Assembly (NCBI GenBank): GCA_947305705.1
Contig: CAMZEB010000004.1
Coordinates: forward strand, 1 to 51,321
Direction of reading: 5' to 3'
From: an uncultured Candidatus Saccharibacteria bacterium
GTDB taxonomy: Bacteria; Patescibacteriota; Saccharimonadia; Saccharimonadales; Saccharimonadaceae
Length of the DNA stretch: 51,321 nt
The translations under genes and the position numbers were made by a program. Positions 5,530 through 46,029 of the stretch are shown here, in pieces. How positions within the stretch are numbered: the stretch's first letter is position 1; each line of letters begins with the position of its first letter. Under the pieces are notes generated by a model. It made no database searches. It saw only the letters and a list, made by a program, of their open reading frames with translations, and had not been told where the DNA came from.

Positions 5530-8500
5530 ATGTCCAAAAATAAACACGTAGTAAAAGGTTTTTTGCTACTTTTTGTTGCGATTTTCGCGACGGTTTTTTT
5601 TAGCAACTCGGCGTTTGCTGAGAGCAGAGGTATTATTACCGATGCGAACGATATTCGTTGGGAGTATATTCTTGACGATAGTCTAACGATTCGGTTTTTT
5701 GATAAGCCGGCAAATGCGACAACCGTTACGATACCATCACTAGATGACCTCAAGACCCTAGTGCCTGGTGCTCCAGCTGACCTCGATACTTATTTCTTAA
5801 AGAGTGCGGATCCGAATGCGCAGGATACTGCATATCCGAGCATTACGCGTCGTCAGGCGACGGCCGATACGACCAAGCTTGATATGTCGAATACGGCGAA
5901 AATCCAGATTATTGGCGTGAAACCGATTATCAATCCGGCAGTTGAGACAGAGCTAGTCTTTGGCAATGAGATGGTGATTGGTGATGAGGCCGGCTCGAAA
6001 GTGAAGATGGTCAAGTGCGATGAGCGGTATATATGGTATGACAGTTGGGGTGATTATTACTACTGCGGTACTGTTGACGAATACTTAGATATTCCAAACT
6101 GGGAATATATGACGAACGCGGAGCGTAGCGTGTATGTTCCTACGGCGGCGGATTTTAATTGTTATGATTTGCAAGGTGTAACGAGCGCGACCTATGTAGA
6201 GGGTAGGTGTTATGTGAAAAATATCAGCTTAGTAAATGAGACGACAGATGGGACTCCGATTCGTATTGGTGGGGCGTTCGCTAACTATAAACTGAAGCTT
6301 ACTGGTTTTTCGGGTAGCAAGTTCAATTATGTTGGTTGGGATGCGTTTGCTAACTCGACGCTTCACGATACGAACATTACGATTAGCGGCGATAGCTTTG
6401 CTGGTGGCAATATCTTTAGAAATACGAACGTTGAGCGCGTAACGATTGAGACGAATAATATCGGCTATGGTATCTTTAAAGATTGTCAGCATTTAGCGCA
6501 GGTGACGTACGATAGCTCAGTTACGACGGTTTCGGATGGAGCGTTTGAGGGGACGAATTTAACTTCTTTTGATTTTTCGACGACGAATATTAAGACGGTT
6601 GGCGTAAGAGCGTTTAAGGGCGCAAATTTGACGAGCGTGAATTTGAGTGGATTGCAGCGAATTAATTACAGGGCATTCGCCTACAACAATGTGAGTGAAC
6701 TGTATTTCCCGAAGTCGATTAATTATTTGGAATCTGGTCTATTCTTGGGCAACACGAATCTAAAGAAAGTGACTGTTGCGTATGATACGCTTACGAGCGG
6801 TACGACTTATCCGTTCTATATTGTTATCGATGGCGTTGATGACGGCGGCGTCGCTACGTATAGTTATCCTGGTACTGCGGACTCGGCGGCGAATGCGATT
6901 GAGGAGTTGATCGTAGAAGCCCCATATGGAGCAGACGAGCAAGTAAGTGCGACACATTTAACCTATGACGAATATCGGTGGCATTATGATTCGTACAGTC
7001 AGGAGCGCCATGAAGAAGCGCAATATTCTGTTTTGCGCACTGGCTATGCTAATGAACATAATTATGACTATTTGTATCCAGGCGAGACTAAAGACTATAA
7101 ATTCGAGGATGATTACGCAGATGTCGATAGTAAAAAGAACGTTATTGCGCCAATTTATTTCATAGATTTGGCTGGACTAAAGAAGGTTACAATAGGCAGC
7201 GGCTATGAATATATCGGTTCATCGGCGTTTTATAGTCATTATCAGAATACGTACGGCAATTTCTGGGTATATCATATCGATGACCCAAATTATGTTCCAA
7301 ATAATGCTCGTCCGCTTGAAGAGATTAATTTACCTGAAGGTTTGCTTGGTGTAGGCAATCTAGCCTTCGAAGATATTTGGAGTGAGAATTTGAAGCTGAA
7401 TTTGCCAAATAGCCTTGAGTTTATTGGTATTGCAGCGTTCCGTAAAACATGGCATTTCAAGGCAGATTTCGACTTGCCAAACATTAAATACATCGGCGAT
7501 CATGCATTCGAATCGTCGATGATCCAGAACGTCACGCTACATGACAAAATGTACTATCTAGGTCTACATGCATTTTCAAACTGTATGTGGCTAAAGAATG
7601 TAACTATTGACTATGATATATTCAGTCCAGATTTGATGACGGTTTGGGCGGGTTCGAACAAGGCGACGACTAATAGGGCTAAGGAACACGCGCACCAAGA
7701 TTACCGCAACTTCTTCCGTCAGCAGTTCGGCGAGGCGCGTGATGCGGTGAACTACAATCCGAGCGTAGCGATTGAGCATTACGGCGTATATGCAGACTAT
7801 TATCCATTGAATCATAGCGGTACGTTCCAGAAGTTTGGCAAGATAACATTTACGAGTAAAGCCGTTCATGAGATTCCGACTGCGGATGACATGTACTACG
7901 AAGATTGGGCTGGTAGGATAAATAAAGGATTGGAGAGATTTTATCCGCAGGATGATGAATTCTTCGGCCATTTAATTGCGGATGAAATCGATATTAGTCA
8001 GACCCCATGGAAAGTGCTACCGCCAAATGCCTTTAATAACTCAATGATTGGGGAAGTGAAGTTGCCGAACAATCTTGAAGCAATTAGCGCGATGGCGTTT
8101 AACTGTTTCTTGTCGGATAGCGAGTTGGTGATACCGAGCACAGTGAAGTATATTGGCGAGAAGGCACTGCAATGCTCGAACTTGTATTATTCATCTGACA
8201 AACGCCCGGCAACGATTACCGAATTGGCGGCGGTAAAGGTTACGAGCTTGCCTAGAGGGCTTGTGTATGTTGGCGATATGGCATTTTATGACAATACGAG
8301 AATGACGGCTGATTTGAATGCGCCGAACTTGGAATATATTGGTATTCGCGCATTCCAAGGCTCGAATGTTCGTGATGTCTTGATTCCAGAGGGTGTGACA
8401 AGATTGCGCGAGGGCACGTTTGCAAACGCACCATCGCTTCGCAATATTACGATTGACGCTGACTTCTTGGAAATCGTTAAACCGGGTCCTTATGACTATG

Positions 8501-10851
8501 AAATTCCGCAAGTTATCAAAGACTATATTAATAAGGAAGAAGACGAGCGATATTATCTGAACACAAAGGATATGATTGCTTATTACGACGAAACGGAGAC
8601 TTGCTGGAATGGATCTGGCTACGGAAGATGCGTAGATAAAGTTGATGGTAAAACATTTGAGACATTCTACACGATCTTTAGCAAGACGATGAAAGAGAGC
8701 ACTAGTGGCACAAATGATGGTCAGCAGACATCTGGTGATGAGTTTGGCGTCGTCACTTTTACAGACAAGAATACTACGGAATTCTGGGGTCGTAATAGCA
8801 GCGGTATGTTTGCGGGGCTCAGCTTTGGCAAACTAGATATGAATGAAACGAACTGGAAGAATTTCGGCAATGAAACAGGAGTATTCTACAAGTCGAAGTT
8901 CGGTACACTTTCCTTGCCGCACGCGTTAACGACGATTCCGTATGCGTCCTTTGAATATGCCGAGATTGGTAATTCATTTACGATTCCTGGCACCGTGACG
9001 AGTGTTGTTGAAATGGCGTTCCCATGGACGAAGATTAACGGAAATGTTACTTTTGCTGGTGGCGCTAATGAAATCACATTTGGCAATAATATATTCTTTA
9101 GGTCGCAGATTGATGGCACGGTTACGTTGCCGAGCAATATGAAAACCGTGTCAGAAAGAATGTTTATGGAAAGCACAGTTGATGGAGTATCGATGCCTGC
9201 AGAGGGGATTGAAACCATTAAGTCTAATGCCTTCTATATGTCGACGATTAATAACGAATTTGCGTTACCTAATACACTGAAGTCGGTAGAATGGGCAGCA
9301 TTCATGAGTGCCGATCTAGATATCTCGAACACGCTCCCTGAAGGTCTTCTAACAGTAGCAGGTGCCGCCTTCTATAATACAGATTTCTCCGACGACCTCG
9401 TCATTCCAAGCACGGTCACAAGTATTGGCTGGTCGGCATTTAGCACTGCTGATACTGACGTCCATTACAATACCGTCACCATTAGGCCAAATCTGACAGC
9501 CGCAAATTCGAGCAATCAGAGAGTTCATCAGCTGCTCTGGAACGTCAGCGTAGATAAGCTCATCATCGATTCAAGTGTGTTGGTTGCCATAGATAGAGGA
9601 ATTGAGGGGCCGGTCAGTTCTTCGGATAACGGTGAGGAATTCTGGAATATGGACATGAAGGAAGTCGTCATTAACAACCTACCGAAGATTACCTATTCAG
9701 CCTTCAATATGTGTAACAATCTCGAAACTGTGGATATGAGCAATAACACAAACATTCGCGAGATTGACGATAAAGCCTTCATGAATGATGAGAAACTTAA
9801 GACAGTTAAGTTTTCACCAGACATCAGTAGTGAAGACATTATCCTCGGTATCAATGCCTTCACGAACACTGGTCTGACAAGCATCGGTAATGCAGATTCA
9901 GACTTCAACCTCTATGCTGCTAAATTCGATGCCTCCGCAGGTGAAGTCTTCTCGAAGATGAAAGCATTGAAGAGCGTAGATGTACCAAGTACCTTCAGTA
10001 ACGCTATAATCCCAGAAAAGACCTTCTACGATTCTCCAGAACTCGAAACTGCATCAGTAGCATACAAGGTCAAACGTATAGATAATGCAGCCTTTGCAAA
10101 CGATAACAAACTAAAACGCATCTTCATTTGGGGTAATACTGTAGTGCTAGACGAAAACCTCCCTGGCTACGAAGCACCAATTAGTGGTATGGGTGCAGAC
10201 GGCGACGAGGAAGAAACCCTCGGTCCAACGATTCCTGAAGGAACCAATATCTATGCCTACTCAACCTCACCAACAAGAGTCTACGCTGAGTATAGCGGAC
10301 GTGATGATTTTACGGGTACATTCTATCCGCTTGATGAGGTTCTCTACATTACGGCAAACAAGACTTATGTCGAAGTGAATGACGATGAAACGGATTTCGA
10401 TAAAGATGGTCTCATCGTGTACGCAATGCGTCGTGATGGTGTCGTATTAGAGTCGGACGAATGGTCAGAGTTTGACGGTAATGCATACCCACGCAGTGAG
10501 AAAGATCTTCACTTCGATAAGATGCTCCCAACGATTGCTGCAGATCCTGACTTCGGCACAATTTGGGATACGCCAGTACCGATGGATGAGCTTGATCTTA
10601 GTAATGAGAACTTCGCAGATATTGACTACGAATTGGTTGGCAATACTGATGGTGTAGCAGGTGTGAGATTGATAAATATTCGCTACACAGATGGCTATAC
10701 AAGTGGCCTAGCCGATACGGATGTATTCCCACTAGCTGATGCACCGATAACGATTGACAATATATCTTCATATATTAGCATCATGGCTGTAACGGCAGTA
10801 GCTGGCGCGGTCGCAATTATTGTGTCGCGTAGAACACTACATCGCCGCTAG
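5530..10851 (+). CDS. Giant secreted leucine-rich-repeat (BspA/TpLRR-type) surface protein
   Basis: A 1773-residue surface protein. A Sec signal peptide ends at about residue 30 (AFA before Glu31). A unique N-terminal domain (about 31-250) follows. Many LRR_5/TpLRR-type units come next, of the form LPxxLxxIGxxAFxxxxLxxVxIP, for example LPNSLEFIGIAAFR. A conserved 150-residue C-terminal domain precedes one hydrophobic helix and a basic tail (IIVSRRTLHRR). There is no LPXTG, so membrane anchoring by the C-terminal helix is likely. TpLRR proteins are known adhesins. The protein is paralogous to 12568-17820 over its whole length. Only 35 bases separate it from the following glycosyltransferase. 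Third-position C rises from about 9300 onward. Confidence 0.93.
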   Translation: MSKNKHVVKGFLLLFVAIFATVFFSNSAFAESRGIITDANDIRWEYILDDSLTIRFFDKPANATTVTIPSLDDLKTLVPGAPADLDTYFLKSADPNAQDTAYPSITRRQATADTTKLDMSNTAKIQIIGVKPIINPAVETELVFGNEMVIGDEAGSKVKMVKCDERYIWYDSWGDYYYCGTVDEYLDIPNWEYMTNAERSVYVPTAADFNCYDLQGVTSATYVEGRCYVKNISLVNETTDGTPIRIGGAFANYKLKLTGFSGSKFNYVGWDAFANSTLHDTNITISGDSFAGGNIFRNTNVERVTIETNNIGYGIFKDCQHLAQVTYDSSVTTVSDGAFEGTNLTSFDFSTTNIKTVGVRAFKGANLTSVNLSGLQRINYRAFAYNNVSELYFPKSINYLESGLFLGNTNLKKVTVAYDTLTSGTTYPFYIVIDGVDDGGVATYSYPGTADSAANAIEELIVEAPYGADEQVSATHLTYDEYRWHYDSYSQERHEEAQYSVLRTGYANEHNYDYLYPGETKDYKFEDDYADVDSKKNVIAPIYFIDLAGLKKVTIGSGYEYIGSSAFYSHYQNTYGNFWVYHIDDPNYVPNNARPLEEINLPEGLLGVGNLAFEDIWSENLKLNLPNSLEFIGIAAFRKTWHFKADFDLPNIKYIGDHAFESSMIQNVTLHDKMYYLGLHAFSNCMWLKNVTIDYDIFSPDLMTVWAGSNKATTNRAKEHAHQDYRNFFRQQFGEARDAVNYNPSVAIEHYGVYADYYPLNHSGTFQKFGKITFTSKAVHEIPTADDMYYEDWAGRINKGLERFYPQDDEFFGHLIADEIDISQTPWKVLPPNAFNNSMIGEVKLPNNLEAISAMAFNCFLSDSELVIPSTVKYIGEKALQCSNLYYSSDKRPATITELAAVKVTSLPRGLVYVGDMAFYDNTRMTADLNAPNLEYIGIRAFQGSNVRDVLIPEGVTRLREGTFANAPSLRNITIDADFLEIVKPGPYDYEIPQVIKDYINKEEDERYYLNTKDMIAYYDETETCWNGSGYGRCVDKVDGKTFETFYTIFSKTMKESTSGTNDGQQTSGDEFGVVTFTDKNTTEFWGRNSSGMFAGLSFGKLDMNETNWKNFGNETGVFYKSKFGTLSLPHALTTIPYASFEYAEIGNSFTIPGTVTSVVEMAFPWTKINGNVTFAGGANEITFGNNIFFRSQIDGTVTLPSNMKTVSERMFMESTVDGVSMPAEGIETIKSNAFYMSTINNEFALPNTLKSVEWAAFMSADLDISNTLPEGLLTVAGAAFYNTDFSDDLVIPSTVTSIGWSAFSTADTDVHYNTVTIRPNLTAANSSNQRVHQLLWNVSVDKLIIDSSVLVAIDRGIEGPVSSSDNGEEFWNMDMKEVVINNLPKITYSAFNMCNNLETVDMSNNTNIREIDDKAFMNDEKLKTVKFSPDISSEDIILGINAFTNTGLTSIGNADSDFNLYAAKFDASAGEVFSKMKALKSVDVPSTFSNAIIPEKTFYDSPELETASVAYKVKRIDNAAFANDNKLKRIFIWGNTVVLDENLPGYEAPISGMGADGDEEETLGPTIPEGTNIYAYSTSPTRVYAEYSGRDDFTGTFYPLDEVLYITANKTYVEVNDDETDFDKDGLIVYAMRRDGVVLESDEWSEFDGNAYPRSEKDLHFDKMLPTIAADPDFGTIWDTPVPMDELDLSNENFADIDYELVGNTDGVAGVRLINIRYTDGYTSGLADTDVFPLADAPITIDNISSYISIMAVTAVAGAVAIIVSRRTLHRR

Positions 10852-10886: not shown

Positions 10887-12479
10887 ATGAGAGGTGATTC
10901 CAGAAAATTTGAGTGTGGGCCGAAAATTGCTATATATATTTTGGTAGCACTCGCCTCTGTTGTTTACTTAGTTTATCGTGTGTGTTTTACAGTGCCGTTT
11001 GAGTTGCGACCGATTGATGTAACGATTGGCTTGATTGTGCTGTTCGCTGAGTTGATGGAGGCGTTTGAGTTTTTTGTGTATTTTTGGAATGTTTTGCGTT
11101 ACAAGAAGACTTCGCCGGAGACGCCGAAGGTGGCAGGTGGAGAATTGCCAGATGTTGACGTTTTTGTTGCGACATTGAATGAGGACGAGGGGCTTTTGCG
11201 CAAGACTTTGAAGGCGTGCTCCGAGATGAAATATCCAGATGCGAAAAAGGTGCATTTGTACATTTGTGATGATGGGGCGCGGAAGAACGTAAAAAAGCTT
11301 GCGAAGGAGTTCAAGGCGGAATATTTGGCTCGCGATAATCATGTGTTTGCGAAGGCTGGGAACTACAACTATGCGTTGAAGCATTCGAGCTCGCCATATA
11401 TTGCGATATTTGACGCGGATATGTGTCCGACTAAGAACTTTTTGATGAAAACGATGCCGTTCTTTGTGTCGGAGGAAAAGGTCGGCTTCGTGCAGACGCC
11501 ACAGAGTTTTAATAATCCTGATATGTTTCAAGCGAGATTTGGGGCGCGGATGCCGTTTGAACAGGATTATTTTTATCACTATATTCAGATGGCGCGCAAT
11601 AATACGAACTCTGTAATAATGTGCGGGACTAACTGTGTGATTGCGCGAAAGGCTTTGAAAGAAGTGGGCGGTTTTGCGTCGGCGACGATTGCGGAAGATG
11701 TGGCGACTGGAATGCTGATTGAGGCGAAGGGGTATCGCGGAATTGCGATTGCGGATGTATTGGCGCACGGCGAGGCGGTGGATAATGTGGCGGGATTTTT
11801 GAAACAGCGTTCGCGTTGGGGCAGAGGTTGCGTGCAGACAGCGAAGTGCTACGGTATTTTCAGTGTAAAAGGGCTGAAGTTGCGCCAAAAACTAGATTAT
11901 TTCGTGTCGATTAAATATTGGAATTTTGGGATGAGGCGGCTATTTTATATGGCTTTGCCACTGATTTATGTTTTTGCGCACGTGATTGCGATTGAGGCGG
12001 ATCTAAAGGTGTTTATTCCGTTGTTTTTGACGCAGTATTTCTTGCGACGTTTTGTAATTGACTGGATTGAAGGTGGGCGTAAGTCGGCAACTTGGGCAAA
12101 GATTTATGAGTTGATTTTGGCGCCGTATTTGTGGCTGTTGATTCTTGGCGAGATGTTGGGGATATCTAGTAAAAAGTTCTCGGTGACGAAGAAGGGCAAT
12201 ACTGCGAAAAAAGGAATGATGGATGGACTACTTTTCTTGATGCACTGGTTGCTGCTACTTTTGAACGGACTTGGTCTAGCGGTAGCGATTTTTAAGATTA
12301 TGGCTGAGGGAATCGAGCTATATATTATTCCGATCGTTTGGATTTCGATTAATATTCTGTATCTGTTGTTTGTATTGCTGTTTGATTTGCGTAAGAACAA
12401 GACGCCAAAGAGCTTTAAGCCGAACAAATATAGCAGATATACGCCGATGTCTTTTATTGGGGTGATTTGGCGAAAATAA
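10887..12479 (+). CDS. Cellulose-synthase-like family 2 glycosyltransferase
   Basis: A processive beta-glycan synthase by sequence. The 530 residues hold two N-terminal membrane helices (about 14-35 and 42-70), a cytosolic GT-A domain and about five C-terminal helices. Catalytic motifs are in order: CDDG (127-130), DAD (176-178), QTPQ (203-206), a TED-like AED (269-271) and QRSRW (307-311). QTP and QxxRW are the signature of cellulose/hyaluronan-type synthases. No PilZ domain follows the last helix, so c-di-GMP control as in BcsA is not expected. The product could be cellulose, a mixed beta-glucan or another beta-linked polymer. TATAAT (10871-10876) lies ten bases before the ATG. It sits between two giant LRR proteins with a GH5 gene downstream. 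Confidence 0.92.
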   Translation: MRGDSRKFECGPKIAIYILVALASVVYLVYRVCFTVPFELRPIDVTIGLIVLFAELMEAFEFFVYFWNVLRYKKTSPETPKVAGGELPDVDVFVATLNEDEGLLRKTLKACSEMKYPDAKKVHLYICDDGARKNVKKLAKEFKAEYLARDNHVFAKAGNYNYALKHSSSPYIAIFDADMCPTKNFLMKTMPFFVSEEKVGFVQTPQSFNNPDMFQARFGARMPFEQDYFYHYIQMARNNTNSVIMCGTNCVIARKALKEVGGFASATIAEDVATGMLIEAKGYRGIAIADVLAHGEAVDNVAGFLKQRSRWGRGCVQTAKCYGIFSVKGLKLRQKLDYFVSIKYWNFGMRRLFYMALPLIYVFAHVIAIEADLKVFIPLFLTQYFLRRFVIDWIEGGRKSATWAKIYELILAPYLWLLILGEMLGISSKKFSVTKKGNTAKKGMMDGLLFLMHWLLLLLNGLGLAVAIFKIMAEGIELYIIPIVWISINILYLLFVLLFDLRKNKTPKSFKPNKYSRYTPMSFIGVIWRK

Positions 12480-12567: not shown

Positions 12568-15500
12568 ATGGGGCAATATAGAGGAATTATTTATCGTCCG
12601 GCCGTTAGACGCATTTGCTTTGCGTTTTTGATGGCGGTATTTTTTACGGCAAACTTATTTGGCGGCTCAGCGTTCGCGGCAACTACGAGCGGCATTATTA
12701 CAGATGCTAACGGTATTCGTTGGGAATATGTGCTTGCGACTGGCGAGCAAGGTGCCCGTGGCAGCGACTGGCTAGAGATTCGTTTTTATGATAAGCCAGA
12801 AAATTCGAGCACAGTGACGGTTCCGTCTTTGAGCGAGTTGAAATCTTTGGTTGCAAATGCCCCTGCTAACCTAGATACGTACTTCCTCATAGATGCGGAT
12901 ACTGCGGCGCAAGATACGATATATCCTAGCTATACTCGCCGTCAAGCTAATGTCGATACGACTATCCTTGATATGCAAAATACCTCCAAGATTCAGATTC
13001 AAGGTGTGAAACCAATCATTGATCCGAATGTAGAGACTGAACTTATATTTGGGCCAAATATGGTGCTTGGGGATATTGTGGCGAAAAGAGTAACGGCTAC
13101 TTATTGCGGTACGATGAATTATGCTGGGGATACCTATTACGAATGTAATGATCGGGAAACCAGAGTATTTGAGGGTTTCGAAGGCGGCATTCCGAATTGG
13201 GATACGATGACCGAGGAACAACAGCTGAGTTATGTTGTTCAGCCTAGCGATTTAGGCTGTATTCAGATTAGTAGTACTTATGTGTCATTACCATCATATG
13301 ACCCTACGAAGTGCTACATCCTTAATGTAGAAAAAGAAACCATACGTCACGGTAGTGCTTTTGAGGGCTATAAGCTCAAGCTAACGAATTTTAGTAGTGA
13401 TAATTTTAACTATATTGGTTGGGAAACATTCAAAGATTCTACCTTCAATGCTGCCAATACGACGATGATGATTTCTGGTAGTAGCTTGATGGGTAGCAAT
13501 ATTTTCCAGAATACGAACATTACGAAGGCGATAATACAGACCGATACGATGGGCGCGGGAATGTTTAGAGATTGTGCGTCGTTGGCTGAAGTAGAATTTG
13601 GTAGTAACGCGACGCGTATTGTTGACAGTACTTTTGCAGGTTCTGGTTTGACTTCAATTAGTTTTGCGGGGTCGACTATCAAAGCAATTGGCGTGAATGC
13701 GTTCGAAGGGGCAAGTATAAGAAATGTTAACTTTGATGGCATTGAGAGAATCGAATATCGGGCATTTGCGAATAATGATATTGGCGAATTATATCTGCCA
13801 AAGTCAATTAAATGGCTTTCAGCGTCGGTTTTTGATAAAAATATAAATTTAAAGAAGTTAACAATTGCCTATGATACATTAACGAGTGGGACAACTTTGC
13901 CTATGTATGTCGTGTTGGGCGGACACGAAAGGGGGGCTAACGAAAGCACTGCTTGGAGCGTTGAGGAACTGAATATTATCGCGCCATATACTGAAAATGA
14001 GAATGTCAGTGGGACACATGTTTCTTATGAAGACTATAAGTGGCATTATGACTTGTATCAGAATTATAGTGCAGAGCCAGTAGATAGAACTTCTAGCTGT
14101 TATGGTTGGGTGAACTATAGTGCCTATACTGGGAAAGCGCCAAATGGCGATTATTGCGGTACGAGCTATTATTATAACCAGACTGGAAATAGTAGAAATG
14201 ACCCAGTTTGGACGCCAGAGACATCGAGCGGTAATGGCTCACAATTTGAGACGGACTATGCGGAAGTTGATGCGAAGAAAAATGTCTTGGCGCCAATCTA
14301 TTTTATGAATATGGATGGGCTAAAAAAGATTACGATCGGTGAAGGGTATGAGTTTATTGGAAGTTCGGCATTTCTTAGCACGAACCGTGTTGCGTGGAGT
14401 ATGAAATATGGAAGTGATTGGTATTCCGATCAGCTGCGCAAAGTGTCGGAGATTAATCTCCCAAGCACGCTTAAGGGCATAGGCAACTTGGCTTTCGAAT
14501 CAATTTCTGGTGTAGAGCTAGATATGGAATTGCCAGAATCACTGGAGTTTATTGGACAGGCGGCATTTAGGCATGTTTGGCTCTATGACGGTGATATAGA
14601 TTTACCTAACCTGAAAGCCCTTGGCGATGAGGCGTTTAAATCTACGCTCGTAAATGATATTTATCTTCACGATAAAATCATCTATTTTGGTAGAGAAGTC
14701 TTTACGTATTGTCCGATGATAAATGACGTCACATTTGACTTTGATGTGTTTAATCCTAACCTTCGAACAGTTTGGTCTGGACTTGGACGTTCAGCGGCCT
14801 GGGATGATTTGATGTTCCGTTTTGCAGCAGTATTCGGCGATAACGATCAGTCTATATCATATAACTATGATGAAGCTAGGACTACGAGTATTCCATTAAC
14901 TGGCGCTACTGTGCAAAGATTTGGCACAATAACTTTCACTGATAAGGCAGTAAGTGAGCTGCCGAATTGTTATGGACTTAGACATTCGCAATTAAGTCTT
15001 GCATATTTGGATACTTATAATAATTTCTTTGGATATATAGCTGCGGACAAGATTGACATTAGTAAAACTGGCTGGAAAGTACTTACTCCAGAAATGTTTA
15101 TTACGTCGGTTATAGACGAGGTCGTGTTGCCGGAAAATCTCGAAGTAATTATGGGTGAAGCATTTGCGAATACTGTAATAGAAGAAGAATTAGTGATTCC
15201 AGATACAGTTAAGGTTATCGGTGATCATGCCTTCCACTGTGCTGGTTTGCTCCAAGTTGGCGCAAAGACGCCGACGATAACGAGCCTTCCATCTACAATT
15301 GAATATATTGGCAGGGAAGCATTTTATGGTGACACGAATTTGACGGCTGATTTGCTCAGCGAAAATTTGAAAGTCGTTCAGGTTCGCGCATTTCAGGGAA
15401 CACATCTACGCGATGTGTTGATTCCAAGCGGCGTGACGTTCTTGCACGAGGCGACATTTGGCAACATTCCGACTTTGCGAAACGTGACGATAGATAGTGA

Positions 15501-17820
15501 TTTGGGTTCTTATATTAACACGGCGCCAGATCAGGTTGAGCCAGATTTTAGCGAGTATGTATTTCCAGAATCGCTTGTTGATTTCGCCGGAAACGATCTT
15601 GAGGCTTCGCTCGAGAGCCATATGTTTAATTCATTAAACTGGATAAGCGGTAATTATAGTTCTGGAAGTGTTTATGGTGGCACCATCTTTACGTTCTATT
15701 CAATCTTTAACCATTCGTTCGGTTCTTTGGCTACTGCCGGCGAAAAATATGGGAATTTGGTCATAAAGAGTCATTCGACGACGGTTCCGGGGAAGGTTAG
15801 CTTTTTCTCACATACAGACTTTGATGTTGTCGATTTGAGTGAATCGAAATGGTACAACATTGGCACTAATTCACTCTTTGCTGAATCGACTATCGGTGCG
15901 CTATATCTGCCAAATGAGGTGGTGACTTTGAACAATTCGCTGTTCTATAAGGCGAAGATTGGGAATACAGTAGTTTTGGCGACGACTATGCGACAGATAA
16001 ACGGCAATGTATTCCAGGAAGCTGAGCTTGGCGGTTTGGATATTGCGGAAGGTTTGCAATCGATTAACGGCTCTTCATTCTACAAAGCAGTCGTCGAAGA
16101 CGAAGTGAATTTGCCGCTCAGCTTTAGAACAATTAATGGTAACTCTTTCCAGGAATCGAAACTTGGCGGCTTAAGTATTGCGAAAGGTTTGGAAACTATC
16201 GGGCAAAATGGCTTCTATATGGCAGAAATTGGGGGAGAGTTCTCGCTACCTAGCTCACTGAAGTCTATTGGTTGGGCAGGTTTTATGCATGCAAAAATGC
16301 ATATTACGAATTCGTTGCCTGAAGGTATAGAGACATTAGGTGGCGCGGCATTTTATGATACGGCATTTTCTGATAATCTTGTGATTCCGGCTTCGTTGCA
16401 ATCGATTGGTCATTCGGCTTTAAGCACTGGGGATACAACGGTTCATTATGACACGATTACGATAAATGCAGATTTGCCAGCATCGAAGACTGGCAGTGAA
16501 ACAGTGTTCCAGATGCTATGGAATATTGATGTAGATAAGATGATTGTAAACTCTAGTAAATTGACGGCATACGATCGTGCGGACGCGATGTATAACGAAG
16601 AATTCTGGCATATGCCATTTGATGAAATCAAGATCACAAAGTTGCCAAAAATTACATATTGGGCATTCAAAGATTGTCCAAACCTCACGAAAGTAGATTT
16701 GAGCGAGGACGCCGCATTACGTTCGATTGGTACGGAAGCATTCCGCAACGCAACGTTGCTAGACGAAATTCACTTTAGTTCTGCTTTGAAAAATGAAGAT
16801 GTTGTGATTAAGACGAATGCCTTTATGGGAACGGCATTTAAGTCGATTGGCGATAGTGAATCTGATTTCGATTTGACGGCAGCGAAGTTTGACGGTAGCG
16901 AAGGTTATGCATTTGCAAATATGCCAAAAGTTGAGAGTGTAAAAGTGCCGGCTACGTTTAGCGGTGCGACGATTCCTATGGCGAGCTTTGCGAACGATAC
17001 TGAGTTGGTTTCTGCAGAGATTGATTATAGAACTACGCAGATGGATACGGCGGCGTTTGCAAATGATAATAAATTGGCACGAATCTTCATTTGGGGGAAT
17101 ACGAAGATTTATGACAGCAACCTTGCTGGCTACGATGCCGATGCGTATGGTCGTGGCGGCGATGATGATGACGAACCGGAATTTGGTCCGACTATCCCAG
17201 AGGGAACTGATATTTATGCTTACTCGACTTCGCCAGCACGCTACTACGCGGAGCACGAGAGTAGAGCAGGCTTTGAGGGTGTCTTCTATCCGCTTGATGA
17301 GGTGTTATACCTGACGTCGAACAAGAAGAAAGTGAAGATTAATGACGCGAACGATGATTTCGAGAAAGATGGCGTCACTCTATATGCAATGCGTCGTGAT
17401 GGCATTGTGCTTGAGTCTGACACTTGGGGCGAGTTTGATGGCGTAGCGTTCCCACGCAGTGAGAAAGATCTTCACTTTGATAAGATGCTTTCAACCATTG
17501 CCGCCGATCCAGACTTTGGCACGATTTGGGATACACCAGTACCGCTCAATGAGCTCGATTTGTCGAATGAGAACTTCGAAAATATCGATTACGAGCTCAT
17601 TATGGACGAGGCAACGGAGGGCGTGAAGCTCGTGAACGTGAAATATACAGACAAGCTTACGGGCTACCTATCTGACACTGACCTTGAGCCATTTATCCCT
17701 GGTGAAATTATCGATGGGCCAGTTACGTTTGCGGAAAATATCTTCATATTCTTCACGCTATTTGCTGGCTGCTGGTGTGTCGTCTTTATGGCGAAGGGTA
17801 TTCGCAGACGCCGCGCTTGA
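12568..17820 (+). CDS. Giant secreted leucine-rich-repeat surface protein, paralogue
   Basis: A 1750-residue paralogue of 5530-10851. It has a signal peptide ending near residue 37 (SAFA), the same N-terminal domain (GIITDANGIRWEY; LDTYFL; ETELIFG) and TpLRR repeats throughout. The same C-terminal domain is strongly conserved (for example PRSEKDLHFDKML, FGTIWDTPVP). A final membrane helix ends in GIRRRRA. There is no sortase motif. The two paralogues differ most in the LRR blocks and in insertions near 450-600, as expected for ligand-facing surfaces of adhesins. The GH5 gene follows after 35 bases. It could also act as a scaffold for the glycan made by the neighbouring synthase, which is inference. 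Confidence 0.93.
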   Translation: MGQYRGIIYRPAVRRICFAFLMAVFFTANLFGGSAFAATTSGIITDANGIRWEYVLATGEQGARGSDWLEIRFYDKPENSSTVTVPSLSELKSLVANAPANLDTYFLIDADTAAQDTIYPSYTRRQANVDTTILDMQNTSKIQIQGVKPIIDPNVETELIFGPNMVLGDIVAKRVTATYCGTMNYAGDTYYECNDRETRVFEGFEGGIPNWDTMTEEQQLSYVVQPSDLGCIQISSTYVSLPSYDPTKCYILNVEKETIRHGSAFEGYKLKLTNFSSDNFNYIGWETFKDSTFNAANTTMMISGSSLMGSNIFQNTNITKAIIQTDTMGAGMFRDCASLAEVEFGSNATRIVDSTFAGSGLTSISFAGSTIKAIGVNAFEGASIRNVNFDGIERIEYRAFANNDIGELYLPKSIKWLSASVFDKNINLKKLTIAYDTLTSGTTLPMYVVLGGHERGANESTAWSVEELNIIAPYTENENVSGTHVSYEDYKWHYDLYQNYSAEPVDRTSSCYGWVNYSAYTGKAPNGDYCGTSYYYNQTGNSRNDPVWTPETSSGNGSQFETDYAEVDAKKNVLAPIYFMNMDGLKKITIGEGYEFIGSSAFLSTNRVAWSMKYGSDWYSDQLRKVSEINLPSTLKGIGNLAFESISGVELDMELPESLEFIGQAAFRHVWLYDGDIDLPNLKALGDEAFKSTLVNDIYLHDKIIYFGREVFTYCPMINDVTFDFDVFNPNLRTVWSGLGRSAAWDDLMFRFAAVFGDNDQSISYNYDEARTTSIPLTGATVQRFGTITFTDKAVSELPNCYGLRHSQLSLAYLDTYNNFFGYIAADKIDISKTGWKVLTPEMFITSVIDEVVLPENLEVIMGEAFANTVIEEELVIPDTVKVIGDHAFHCAGLLQVGAKTPTITSLPSTIEYIGREAFYGDTNLTADLLSENLKVVQVRAFQGTHLRDVLIPSGVTFLHEATFGNIPTLRNVTIDSDLGSYINTAPDQVEPDFSEYVFPESLVDFAGNDLEASLESHMFNSLNWISGNYSSGSVYGGTIFTFYSIFNHSFGSLATAGEKYGNLVIKSHSTTVPGKVSFFSHTDFDVVDLSESKWYNIGTNSLFAESTIGALYLPNEVVTLNNSLFYKAKIGNTVVLATTMRQINGNVFQEAELGGLDIAEGLQSINGSSFYKAVVEDEVNLPLSFRTINGNSFQESKLGGLSIAKGLETIGQNGFYMAEIGGEFSLPSSLKSIGWAGFMHAKMHITNSLPEGIETLGGAAFYDTAFSDNLVIPASLQSIGHSALSTGDTTVHYDTITINADLPASKTGSETVFQMLWNIDVDKMIVNSSKLTAYDRADAMYNEEFWHMPFDEIKITKLPKITYWAFKDCPNLTKVDLSEDAALRSIGTEAFRNATLLDEIHFSSALKNEDVVIKTNAFMGTAFKSIGDSESDFDLTAAKFDGSEGYAFANMPKVESVKVPATFSGATIPMASFANDTELVSAEIDYRTTQMDTAAFANDNKLARIFIWGNTKIYDSNLAGYDADAYGRGGDDDDEPEFGPTIPEGTDIYAYSTSPARYYAEHESRAGFEGVFYPLDEVLYLTSNKKKVKINDANDDFEKDGVTLYAMRRDGIVLESDTWGEFDGVAFPRSEKDLHFDKMLSTIAADPDFGTIWDTPVPLNELDLSNENFENIDYELIMDEATEGVKLVNVKYTDKLTGYLSDTDLEPFIPGEIIDGPVTFAENIFIFFTLFAGCWCVVFMAKGIRRRRA

Positions 17821-17855: not shown

Positions 17856-18866
17856 ATGAAAAAAATAATTATCGCGATTGCGGCGTTGTTGATGTTGGCT
17901 GGTGCGGCAATTGGATTTTTCGTGATAATAAATATCCGTGGTGATGAGGAGATTGTGGTGTGTGAGAGTAATGGCTGGTTAAGTGTTGATGGCGAAAATA
18001 TTGTCGACTCGTGTGGGAAAATTGCACAACTAAAGGGCATTAGTACGCATGGCATACAGTGGTTTGGCAATTTATATAATACGGATAGCATTCACGCATT
18101 AAAGCAAGAAATGGGGATAAATGTTTTTCGCGTTGCGATGTATTCTGATCCGAATGCAAATGGCTATGTTGCGAATCGGTCGTTAAAAGAGAAGGTGTAT
18201 GAGCTTGTCGATGCGAGCATAGTAGAAAATATTTATGTGATTATCGATTGGCATATTTTGAACGATAATAATCCGCAGGCATATAAGGCGGAGGCGCTGG
18301 AGTTTTTTGCAGAGGTTTCGGCGAAATATGCTGATGATTATCACGTGATATATGAGATTTGCAACGAGCCAAATAATGGTGCTGATTGGGAAAACGATAT
18401 ATATCCGTATGCCAAAGAAGTGGTTGCTGGGATTCGCGAGAATAGTCCGAATTCGTTGGTGATTGTCGGAACGGCAAACTATAGCAAAGATTTGTACAGT
18501 GTGGCTCGCAAGCCGCTAGAAGAGAAAAATGTTGCCTATGCGTTGCATTTTTATGCAGGTTCGCATAATAAAGTTTTGCGTGACGAGATGGATGCGGTGC
18601 GCGAAAAAGGCTTGGCGCTGTTCGTGTCGGAATGCGGCGCGACGGACGCATCGGGGGCAGGGGAATTATACGAAGACGGTTTTGAACGCTGGGTGAAATA
18701 TATGAACGAGCGGGGGATTAGTTGGGTGTATTGGTCGTATTCAAACAAAGACGAGGCGTCGGCGATGCTAAAGAAAGATGCCGTGCCTGATTATAAGGCG
18801 GAAGATTTTTCGTTTGATGAGTATTTGTCGCCGAGCGGCGAGCTAATTAGACGAATGCTCAGATAG
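17856..18866 (+). CDS. GH5 family glycoside hydrolase (endoglucanase-like), membrane-anchored or secreted
   Basis: A 336-residue protein with a lysine-start hydrophobic N-terminal segment (about 4-26) acting as signal anchor or signal peptide, then a GH5 barrel. Diagnostic residues are the acid/base Glu171 in CNEPNN, the nucleophile Glu259 in VSECGA, plus FRVAMY (91-96), DWH (131-133) and HFYA (231-234). Known GH5 members cleave beta-1,4-glucans or related polymers. The position after a cellulose-synthase-like gene parallels bacterial cellulose operons, which carry a GH8 or GH5 hydrolase to edit the nascent chain. A role in attacking host-cell glycan is the alternative. TATAAA at 17839-17844 gives a very short leader. 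Confidence 0.92.
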   Translation: MKKIIIAIAALLMLAGAAIGFFVIINIRGDEEIVVCESNGWLSVDGENIVDSCGKIAQLKGISTHGIQWFGNLYNTDSIHALKQEMGINVFRVAMYSDPNANGYVANRSLKEKVYELVDASIVENIYVIIDWHILNDNNPQAYKAEALEFFAEVSAKYADDYHVIYEICNEPNNGADWENDIYPYAKEVVAGIRENSPNSLVIVGTANYSKDLYSVARKPLEEKNVAYALHFYAGSHNKVLRDEMDAVREKGLALFVSECGATDASGAGELYEDGFERWVKYMNERGISWVYWSYSNKDEASAMLKKDAVPDYKAEDFSFDEYLSPSGELIRRMLR

Positions 18867-18917: not shown

Positions 18918-18992
18918 GGGCCCGTCGTTCAACGGATAGGACATACCCCCTCTAAGGGTACAATGCTGGTTCGATTCCAGCCGGGCCTACCA
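18918..18992 (+). tRNA. tRNA-Arg (anticodon TCT) with C at position 33, CCA encoded
   Basis: The acceptor stem is GGGCCCG / CGGGCCT with one G-U pair. The D and T arms (GGTTCGATTCC) are normal. The anticodon stem TACCC / GGGTA encloses loop CCTCTAA, giving anticodon TCT for AGA codons. The loop has C where U33 is almost universal. CCA is encoded (18990-18992). TAGAAT at 18904-18909 is a probable -10 box. A two-hairpin element follows directly. Confidence 0.93.
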
Positions 18993-19090
18993 CAAGGCTA
19001 ACGCCCTCAAACTTCTTCTTGAAAGAAGAAGTTTGGAAAGAAGAACTGATTATGAAAAAGAAGTTACGCACATGTCGTAACTTCTTTTTT
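18993..19090 (+). other. Two-hairpin element behind tRNA-Arg(TCT), copy 1
   Basis: Hairpin 1 at 19008-19035 is a 12-bp stem starting CAAACTT. An invariant 17-base linker AGAACTGATTATGAAAA follows at 19042-19058. Hairpin 2 overlaps the linker end (stem about 19055-19068 / 19076-19089, loop CACATGT) and ends in a T-run, so it also serves as an intrinsic terminator. Copy 2 behind tRNA-Arg(CCT) keeps the linker and loop while both stems differ in sequence but still pair. Confidence 0.7.
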
Positions 19091-19226: not shown

Positions 19227-20774
19227 CTATCGTTTGTCTTTGACACCGACGATCTTGTGCGCGTGTTTTTCGTAGAATTTGTACGGATCGCTACTTAGCT
19301 CGTTGTTGTTCTTTTTTGCAATGAATTTGCTTTTGGATTTGCTGGTTAGTTCGCACTTGTTTTGAGTGACATCGACGGTAAATTTGTTGTTTATGATGTT
19401 TCTGCCGATGAGAATTGGGTAGCTGTTGATTGAGCGATCGGAAAGCGTGAAGGAAGCGTTGATGCTTTTGCCGGCTATCGTAATAGGGATTTTGACACGG
19501 AAGCGCATTTCTTCCTGACCAGTAGAGTTGCGAACGACAGCGATTCTATATTCGTCAGTTTCGTGTTTTTTGCCAGTATAGAATTCGGATTGTTTGTCAA
19601 AGAGGTGGAAGTGTAATTTGCCGTCTTTGCTCATGGAAATTCCACTAGCCCAAATAGATGCAACGCGGGCACCAGTATCGGTGCGGGCAGGGACTTTTAC
19701 GCCTTCGCCAAAGAATGGCGACTCGATATATTCCGAACGACCGATAACAGTCTTTGGTTGATGATTGATAGGATGCGCATTTCGTTCTAGCGCATTAATA
19801 ATGTGCTTTGCAACATTGATTGGTTTGCCTACGCTTGGATAGACGTGCATACGGATGCCAGGGCCGGAGTTTACTTCGATAATGTAATTCTTGCCGCCAC
19901 CGCGGATATCCGTGGTGATAATGTCGACGCCTGCGATACCGAGTTGGCAACGTGCGGCGGCTTTCTCGGCGAGGCTTTTTAGCTCTGGAGCAGCAAGGTC
20001 GGTGCAGTTTACTGCTTCGCCGCCGCGGCTGAGATTGCTAGTTTTTAGAACATTAATCTCTTCGTCGAGTTTTGGAATAAAATTCAAGAAGTCTTCGCCG
20101 TTTGTTTTGGCGACTTCGTCGAGGTTAATTTTTGTTAGAGGTTTGTCGTGTTCTTCGCCGCGAAGCGGGTTTTGGTTTTTCTCGTTAATTAATTCTTTTA
20201 CGGTCTTTTTGCCGTCGCCGACGACGAAAGCAGGGCGACGGTTGGCAACCGCAATACATTTACCGTCGACGACGAGAAAACGATATTCTTTACCTTCGAC
20301 TTGCTCCTGGACGAGAATAGCGGCGGAATCGCTTTCCTTAAGTGCAGATTCGCGAGCGAAAGCAATTGCTTTCGTTAGCTGGTTTTTATCCGTGATATTC
20401 ATCGTAATGCCGTCGCCGTGGTTGGTGCAAGTAGGTTTGACGATGACGCAGTTGTGCTTTTTGAGAAAGGCTTCAGCTTCGCTAAAATCGTTACTGTCGC
20501 CAGGGATCATAATAGTTTCTGGCGTGGAAATATCGGCACTTTTTAGAAGGTCATATGTTAGCCATTTGTCGCCTGCAATGAGATAGCCGCAAGCTGACGT
20601 GAGGGGAGTGAGGGTAGAAGAATAAACAAATTCTTTGCCGTCTTTTTCGGCACGCAGAACGGCCTGGCATGAATAGTGGGTAGAATCAAAAATTTCTACT
20701 TTCCAGCCACGTTTTTCGGCTTCTTCTGAAAGTAGTCTGTTTGTGATCTTTAGGCCTTTTATAGTTTCGCTCAT
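19227..20774 (-). CDS. Cyanophycin-synthetase-like ATP-grasp ligase fused to RimB-like retropepsin domain
   Basis: A 515-residue two-domain protein. Residues about 60-330 are an ATP-grasp domain resembling that of CphA/GshF: IVKPTCTNHGDGITM (111-125), PLRGEEHDKPLTKINLDE (203-220) and the metal/ATP residues in IIEVNSGPG (298-306). Residues about 341-471 match the RimB-type putative ATP-dependent protease family. This part has the aspartic-protease motif DTGA (366-369), followed by LSDRSINSYPILIGR and FTVDV. Known relatives add amino acids to a peptide or protein end (ATP-grasp) or trim such tails (RimB). The fusion suggests one protein that builds and edits a peptide. It overlaps the upstream ATP-grasp gene by 4 bases. 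A basic Lys/Ser/Asn-rich tail ends the protein. Confidence 0.85.
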   Translation of the reverse strand: MSETIKGLKITNRLLSEEAEKRGWKVEIFDSTHYSCQAVLRAEKDGKEFVYSSTLTPLTSACGYLIAGDKWLTYDLLKSADISTPETIMIPGDSNDFSEAEAFLKKHNCVIVKPTCTNHGDGITMNITDKNQLTKAIAFARESALKESDSAAILVQEQVEGKEYRFLVVDGKCIAVANRRPAFVVGDGKKTVKELINEKNQNPLRGEEHDKPLTKINLDEVAKTNGEDFLNFIPKLDEEINVLKTSNLSRGGEAVNCTDLAAPELKSLAEKAAARCQLGIAGVDIITTDIRGGGKNYIIEVNSGPGIRMHVYPSVGKPINVAKHIINALERNAHPINHQPKTVIGRSEYIESPFFGEGVKVPARTDTGARVASIWASGISMSKDGKLHFHLFDKQSEFYTGKKHETDEYRIAVVRNSTGQEEMRFRVKIPITIAGKSINASFTLSDRSINSYPILIGRNIINNKFTVDVTQNKCELTSKSKSKFIAKKNNNELSSDPYKFYEKHAHKIVGVKDKR

Positions 20775-45863: not shown

Positions 45864-45939
45864 GGCCCAGTAGCTCAATGGATAGAGCGGCTCCGTCCTA
45901 AGGAGAAGGTTGTGCGTTCGACTCGCGCCTGGGTCACCA
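45864..45939 (+). tRNA. tRNA-Arg (anticodon CCT), CCA encoded
   Basis: The acceptor stem is GGCCCAG / CTGGGTC with one G-U pair. The D arm is GCTC...GAGC, the anticodon loop GTCCTAA gives CCT for AGG codons and the T arm is GTGCG TTCGACT CGCGC. CCA lies at 45937-45939. The top anticodon-stem pair (27-43) appears to be a G-A mismatch. TATAAT at 45849-45854 is the -10 box. The two-hairpin element follows. Confidence 0.94.
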
Positions 45940-46029
45940 TACTAAACGGACCTTTTCTTTGGAAGAAAAGTCCGACAAAAGAACTGATTATGAAAAGAAA
46001 TCCACGCGCATGTCGTGGATTTCTTTTTG
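45940..46029 (+). other. Two-hairpin element behind tRNA-Arg(CCT), copy 2
   Basis: Hairpin 1 at 45947-45974 (CGGAC...GTCCG stem, one bulged C). The invariant linker AGAACTGATTATGAAAA is at 45980-45996. Hairpin 2 has stem about 45993-46006 / 46014-46027 with loop CGCATGT and ends in a T-run. Compared with copy 1 the stems differ at many positions and still pair, while linker and loop are kept. Confidence 0.7.

Follow-up and report, generated by a model that had tools for sequence, protein, structure and literature searches.

Directly behind the ends of genes in a family of Saccharibacteria lies a two-hairpin element that is best read, from its sequence, as a modular 3′-end cassette and most likely as a compound transcription terminator, a reading that we hold with moderate confidence. 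Its hairpins are conserved in structure, linker and hairpin 1 covary in a triplex register, the apex loop of hairpin 2 is fixed, and T-runs are found at the same sites in relatives. From these observations we infer termination, a triplex and a factor that would read the apex loop. The window (the whole stretch of 51,321 nucleotides that was analysed) holds two copies, each behind a tRNA-Arg gene, with the following parts.

18918–18992, plus strand: tRNA-Arg(TCT), the gene ahead of copy 1 (ARAGORN; Rfam RF00005)
18996–19005, plus strand: optional mini-hairpin GGC-TAAC-GCC, 5′ of hairpin 1, copy 1 (sequence)
19008–19035, plus strand: hairpin 1, copy 1, with pyrimidine arm CTTCTTCTT, purine arm AAGAAGAAG and basal stem CAAA/TTTG (folding, covariation)
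19037–19046, plus strand: purine tract of the linker, AAAGAAGAAC, copy 1; parallel complement of the pyrimidine arm and candidate third strand of a triplex
19042–19058, plus strand: 17-base linker AGAACTGATTATGAAAA, copy 1, identical to the linker of copy 2
19055–19090, plus strand: hairpin 2, copy 1, with arms 19055–19068 and 19076–19089, loop CACATGT at 19069–19075 and T-run at 19085–19090
45864–45939, plus strand: tRNA-Arg(CCT), the gene ahead of copy 2 (ARAGORN; Rfam)
45947–45974, plus strand: hairpin 1, copy 2, CGGAC-C-TTTTCTT / AAGAAAA-GTCCG, with a bulged C
45976–45984, plus strand: purine tract of the linker, CAAAAGAAC, copy 2; parallel complement of TTTTCTT
45980–45996, plus strand: 17-base linker, copy 2
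45993–46028, plus strand: hairpin 2, copy 2, with loop CGCATGT at 46007–46013 and T-run at 46024–46028

The element in the window and its genome

An earlier note on this DNA had described a hairpin, a linker, a second hairpin with the loop CRCATGT and a T-run behind tRNA-Arg(TCT) and tRNA-Arg(CCT), and all of these are present at both sites. The linker, which the note called invariant, has the same 17 bases in both copies but differs in other copies (for example AGAACTTATTATGAAAA and GAAACCAGTATGGAACA). A search of the 885-kb genome for the 17-mer, with one mismatch allowed, gave these two sites only, and the reversed 17-mer, used as a control, gave no match. Both copies fold far better than shuffled sequences (z = −6.2 for copy 1 and −5.7 for copy 2; 0 of 200 shuffles as good), and no Rfam family matches the element at its gathering score, sub-threshold matches being chance-like. 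The mini-hairpin 5′ of hairpin 1 recurs in several other copies (GGCTTCGCC, GGCTCCGCC). The tRNA-His gene was said to lack the element, and none is indeed found in the 69 nt behind it, although the contig ends there and the observation carries little weight.

The window also contains two giant ORFs full of BspA-type leucine-rich repeats (5530–10851, 1773 aa; 12568–17820, 1750 aa) with a glycosyltransferase 2 gene between them (10887–12479), a GH5 cellulase-like gene directly ahead of tRNA-Arg(TCT) (17856–18866) and, convergent to copy 1 on the minus strand (19227–20774), a gene whose product combines ATP-grasp/RimK with putative zinc-protease domains.

Distribution and gene context

A first covariance model, built from six copies, was searched over the window's own genome and 45 genomes of its genus, giving five good copies in the former (C4 twice, C14, C15 and C16) and matches in 25 of the latter. 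In 393 genomes of the order, searched with a second model, the element is confined to family f1 (49 genomes; 3 of 156 genera), where it is present in part of the window's own genus g1, with about 2–13 matches per genome, in many g27 genomes and in g42. Such a search of Saccharibacteria genomes was the check suggested in the earlier note; it does recover copies in other genomes, but these are not limited to tRNA-Arg. The genes ahead of them encode tRNA-Arg, Met, Trp, Ser and Leu, RNase P RNA (identified by its conserved 3′ end and not by a model search) and proteins. Among the proteins, Pfam confirmed EF-Tu, HSP70 (DnaK), S8, L28, an S1-domain protein, sigma-70 (RpoD) and NDK, as well as a T2SSE/PilB-like ATPase and a RimK-like protein; S7, S10, a GroEL-like and a PNPase-like protein were identified from sequence only. 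A looser automatic count of upstream ORFs was noisier and was left out of these results.

The element starts 5–9 nt behind the tRNA end in 33 of 37 cases and 15–17 nt behind it in the other four, and the gap to the stop codon is mostly 4–7 nt in g27. Element and protein gene share a strand when the gene ends shortly ahead of the element. Many genes of this family, often core ones, have it at their 3′ end. The proposed tie to tRNAs for rare arginine codons had to be abandoned, with copies also lying behind genes for other tRNAs (Met, Trp, Ser, Leu), for RNase P RNA and for proteins. Because many kinds of gene carry the element and only 2 of the 39 tRNAs of this genome do, the association with arginine tRNAs is accidental; the element is not restricted to tRNA-Arg genes and does not constitute an RNA class specific to them.

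Structure of the hairpins is conserved by covariation

Over 67 aligned matches, two-sided changes are observed in 24 of 25 pairs, with 361 two-sided cells as against 94 in shuffled and 35–70 in slid controls. The cleaner set of 51 distinct rows gives 303 such cells as against 79 and 36–62, respectively, and 95.9% of the pairs are canonical over 51 distinct copies. Alignments fitted to the model make these counts lean toward structure, and the slid controls and hand-read sequences agree with them. Selection on structure, first proposed from compensatory changes between the two copies, is strongly supported by this covariation over many copies, which lies far above the controls.

Hairpin 2 follows the apex grammar A[C/G]G-CRCATGT-C[G/C]Y, in which the A stands opposite T or C, and its arms vary freely. 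In 18 of 44 hairpin-2 sequences the fixed apical pair is an A-C mismatch. Other apex classes occur in g27 and g42 within the same frame (AAGTGAAT, AGAATAAAT; L272, L273, L275, L286, L296). In one locus (L095 54–201, G008:C16), one hairpin 1 is followed by a tandem of two complete hairpin-2 units, of which the second is led by GATTATGAAAA.

G-U pairs make up 0.5% of the pairs in element hairpins and 8.9% in other hairpins found in the same way in the same DNA, a comparison set that may include false hairpins. Such scarcity is suggestive, as it would be expected if DNA pairing constrains the element hairpins. It bears on the view that the element acts as a sense 3′-UTR RNA, in which hairpin 1, a single-stranded linker and an apex loop serve as a protein-binding site or give a small RNA after 3′ processing. 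The sense orientation and the position just behind the stop codon or tRNA end, together with the conserved loop and linker and the low folding energy, are what such an RNA would have; an RNA helix would not usually be so poor in G-U pairs, an A-C mismatch in the fixed apical pair fits it poorly, and the relation between linker and arm described below has no reading in standard RNA pairing. We regard this explanation as quite unlikely.

A triplex-like code between linker and hairpin 1

In parallel orientation, the linker's purine tract complements the pyrimidine arm of hairpin 1, and the tract hence mirrors the purine arm, as illustrated by the arm/tract pairs TTTTCTT with AAAAGAA, CTCTCTTTT with GAGAGAAAA, CTTCTCTT with AAGAGAA and CTTCTTCTC with GAAGAAGAG. 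An exact run of at least 7 nt is found in 89% of 82 distinct arm/linker pairs (35 distinct arms), as compared with 50% when arms are paired with linkers of copies that have another arm; the mean match is 7.4 nt with the own linker and 6.2 nt with those others. Permutation gives z = 7.7 (g1) and 12.8 (g27) in the parallel register, values that overstate independence as the copies are related, and 4.6 (g1) and 5.9 (g27) in the antiparallel register; the direct register is also above chance but less so. One strand thereby carries a pyrimidine arm, a purine arm and a mirrored purine tract of at least 7 nt, the class II intrastrand triplex motif, and this Y-R-R order has been described in bacterial DNA (PMC4666352). 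The linker code may be taken as the signature of an intrastrand triplex that the element would adopt. Counting against the triplex is that a purine-motif third strand must span the 5-bp basal stem with 2–6 nt.

Purine-motif triplexes are reported not to form in RNA, where pyrimidine-motif ones can (PMC4666352), so that the DNA or the complementary strand would have to hold the triplex. The low G-U content and a triplex code on this strand of the kind reported not to form in RNA are together suggestive, in that a constraint at the level of DNA is at least equally indicated. Another candidate for the functional molecule is the complementary strand, as an antisense RNA or single-stranded DNA that would contain a hairpin 2′, a tract rich in U and a triplex hairpin of the pyrimidine motif (U.A-U, C+.G-C). 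Triplexes of that motif are reported to be possible in RNA (PMC4666352), and the A-C mismatch of the fixed apical pair would turn into G-U on this strand. The orientation of the element follows the upstream gene and not the downstream one, however, the −10-like CATAAT of the reverse strand loses its key A in ∼39% of copies, and no −35 is conserved (with one weak match), which makes a functional complementary strand very improbable.

A second class of hairpin 1, with a stem like GAGGGGA-CACAT-TCCCCTC, replaces the pyrimidine/purine hairpin in L105 3021–3101 (G000:C16:7620–7700), L288 and L294; the triplex code is not kept in this class, except perhaps in L294.

Hairpin 2 as a probable terminator

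A T-run of at least 5 lies within 70 nt in 35 of the 38 tRNA-Trp and tRNA-Arg(CCT) loci of relatives that have no element (Trp 22/22, Arg 13/16), as compared with 16% of control windows. At filled loci the first such run sits behind hairpin 2 in 9 of 12 and inside the pyrimidine arm in the other three. As a plain T-run replaces the element at orthologous loci, hairpin 2 most likely serves as a transcription terminator. Consistent with this, hairpin 2 has the stem-loop and immediate sense T-run of an intrinsic terminator, the element lies at transcription-unit ends, and terminators substitute for it. The T-run behind hairpin 2 reaches at least 5 in 46 of 48 g1 copies and is shorter than 5 in 18 of 55 g27 copies, and some copies are preceded by another intrinsic terminator; these short runs and preceding terminators argue that termination is not the sole role. 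An ordinary family of intrinsic terminators, alike through common descent only, would account for hairpin and T-run and for the plain terminators that replace the element in relatives, but not for a loop that is kept while the arms change with compensation, for the linker code or for an apex that recurs in another phylum, and we consider it very improbable. The proposal that the element is more than a terminator is plausible, since the apex loop is conserved and the linker covaries. For a related E. coli triplex motif, an earlier study as cited in PMC4666352 is said to have seen no terminator activity.

Turnover of the element and its apex in gut Clostridia

Presence or absence of the element varies at syntenic tRNA sites. 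Remnants of older hairpins are frequent behind hairpin 2 at g1 loci and occur at about a quarter of loci, mostly 6–27 nt downstream (15 matches, as against 3 on the reverse strand), in which the loop, right arm and T-run are kept and the left arm is lost. At one site, behind tRNA-Trp, the fossil of G068 corresponds to the hairpin that is active in G023. The decayed right halves show repeated replacement, and the arms of hairpin 2 are bound neither to locus nor to genome.

Assemblies of gut Clostridia and Agathobaculum also contain an exact match to a 21-mer from the apex of hairpin 2. The hairpin-2 model finds 6–46 copies in each of 11 such genomes, numbers that describe copy number and not prevalence as the genomes were picked by their match, and none in three unrelated genomes with a chance 21-mer match. 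In these bacteria the apex hairpin ends a row of several hairpins with different 5′ modules, and such rows are apparently a mosaic repeat that has so far gone undescribed. The apex common to both phyla may go back to a common ancestor, to exchange in the gut or to convergent evolution toward an apex that a factor binds. The rows (L353, L354, L361, L378 and similar) have recurrent apices of their own, e.g. GCAAGC-type and GTTCC..GAAAC. In a Clostridia assembly from yak cecum, OLE RNA (L305 4096–4752; 391.9 bits) is followed ∼120 nt behind by a CRCATGT hairpin element.

Variable presence at syntenic sites, right-half remnants, untied hairpin-2 arms and the same multi-copy apex hairpin with different 5′ modules in gut Clostridia are all traits of a mobile or formerly mobile interspersed palindrome of the REP/BIME, MITE or double-hairpin type, which would have its insertion sites behind genes and resemble a terminator as a by-product. 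Such a palindrome is nevertheless unlikely. A Y1 transposase (PF01797), as of REP/RAYT or IS200, is present in 4 of 45 genomes of the genus, none of them element-rich, and the reverse-transcriptase domain is absent from G000, G062, G064, G033, G026 and G023; two exact apex 21-mers have no match in viral contigs, which speaks against carriage by phage. Copies of the same genome are no more alike than those of different genomes, so that neither a recent burst of amplification nor concerted evolution is indicated, and the distance to the stop codon or tRNA end is near-constant, in sense orientation.

Reverse-transcriptase-like ORFs of ∼340–440 aa were seen at 2–4 matches per genome in G377, G395, G234, G341, G030 and G013, and none in the genome of the window. 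Three further candidates were rejected: an uptake signal (no enrichment of the loop motif outside hairpins), a conserved mini-ORF from the linker ATG (changed to ACG or GTG, or lost, in many copies) and an antisense promoter (the reverse-strand −10 is not kept).

A proposed course of termination

As a compound terminator the element would act in steps. RNA polymerase leaving the gene would first cross the polypyrimidine–polypurine hairpin 1, whose purine arm is repeated in mirror order in the purine tract that follows, and a class II (Y-R-R) DNA triplex formed there could pause it. At hairpin 2, an RNA hairpin and U-run would then free the transcript and leave a stem-protected 3′ end. The A-tract/T-tract symmetry of hairpin 2 would also halt convergent transcription, and a factor might read the apex loop. 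Against the compound terminator it counts that this reading gives no reason for the fixed apex loop. Only tentatively do we go on to a more specific form, in which the triplex, kept by covariation of three strands, would be a working part of termination and the apex hairpin common to Saccharibacteria and gut Clostridia would be read by a factor. That hairpin amounts to a 3′-end module, undescribed and multi-copy in gut bacteria, and its recognition would help to annotate gene ends in Saccharibacteria, where genetics is scarce.

Comparison with known systems

A literature search turned up no account of elements like this one in Saccharibacteria. Interspersed palindromes such as REP/BIME, including the GTAG/CGTC REPs (PMC3733652), are likewise small, palindromic, modular and extragenic, and the Clostridia rows resemble their mosaic arrays; in contrast, element-rich genomes have no RAYT, the arms vary within a genome around a fixed loop, matches number about 2–13 per g1 genome, and the distance to stop codons is near-fixed. 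With Rho-independent terminators the element shares a hairpin and T-tract at transcription-unit ends and its exchange for plain terminators in relatives, whereas the fixed 7-nt loop, the conserved linker, the triplex-coded preceding hairpin and the short T-runs of g27 set it apart. Mitochondrial double-hairpin elements, like the present one, comprise two hairpins and a linker, are intergenic and vary in presence between relatives. The likeness is one of layout only, and we know of no triplex code in them. Such double-hairpin or repetitive hairpin-forming elements are named in PMC5910586 and PMC2800124.

The PIT/BoxC/TMECO triplex repeats (PMC4666352) share with the element the class II order of pyrimidine arm, purine arm and mirrored purine tract in one strand, and are likewise intergenic, multi-copy and patchy between relatives. 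TMECO has G/C-rich, highly conserved stems and is without strand bias, link to a gene class or terminator activity (PMC4666352), whereas the triads of the element are A/T-rich and covary over 35 distinct arms, and the element lies behind a gene in its sense orientation and is joined to a second hairpin; the G/C-rich TMECO/BoxC consensus (CCCTCNCCC..GGGNGAGGG..GGGNGAGGG, PMC4666352) does not match the element sequences. Bacterial triplex repeats were already known, but without a clear function and with little comparative evidence. Here, the triplex code persists through sequence change in some 80 distinct combinations of arm and linker, at a near-fixed place behind genes, and whether and why triplexes are selected thereby becomes testable.
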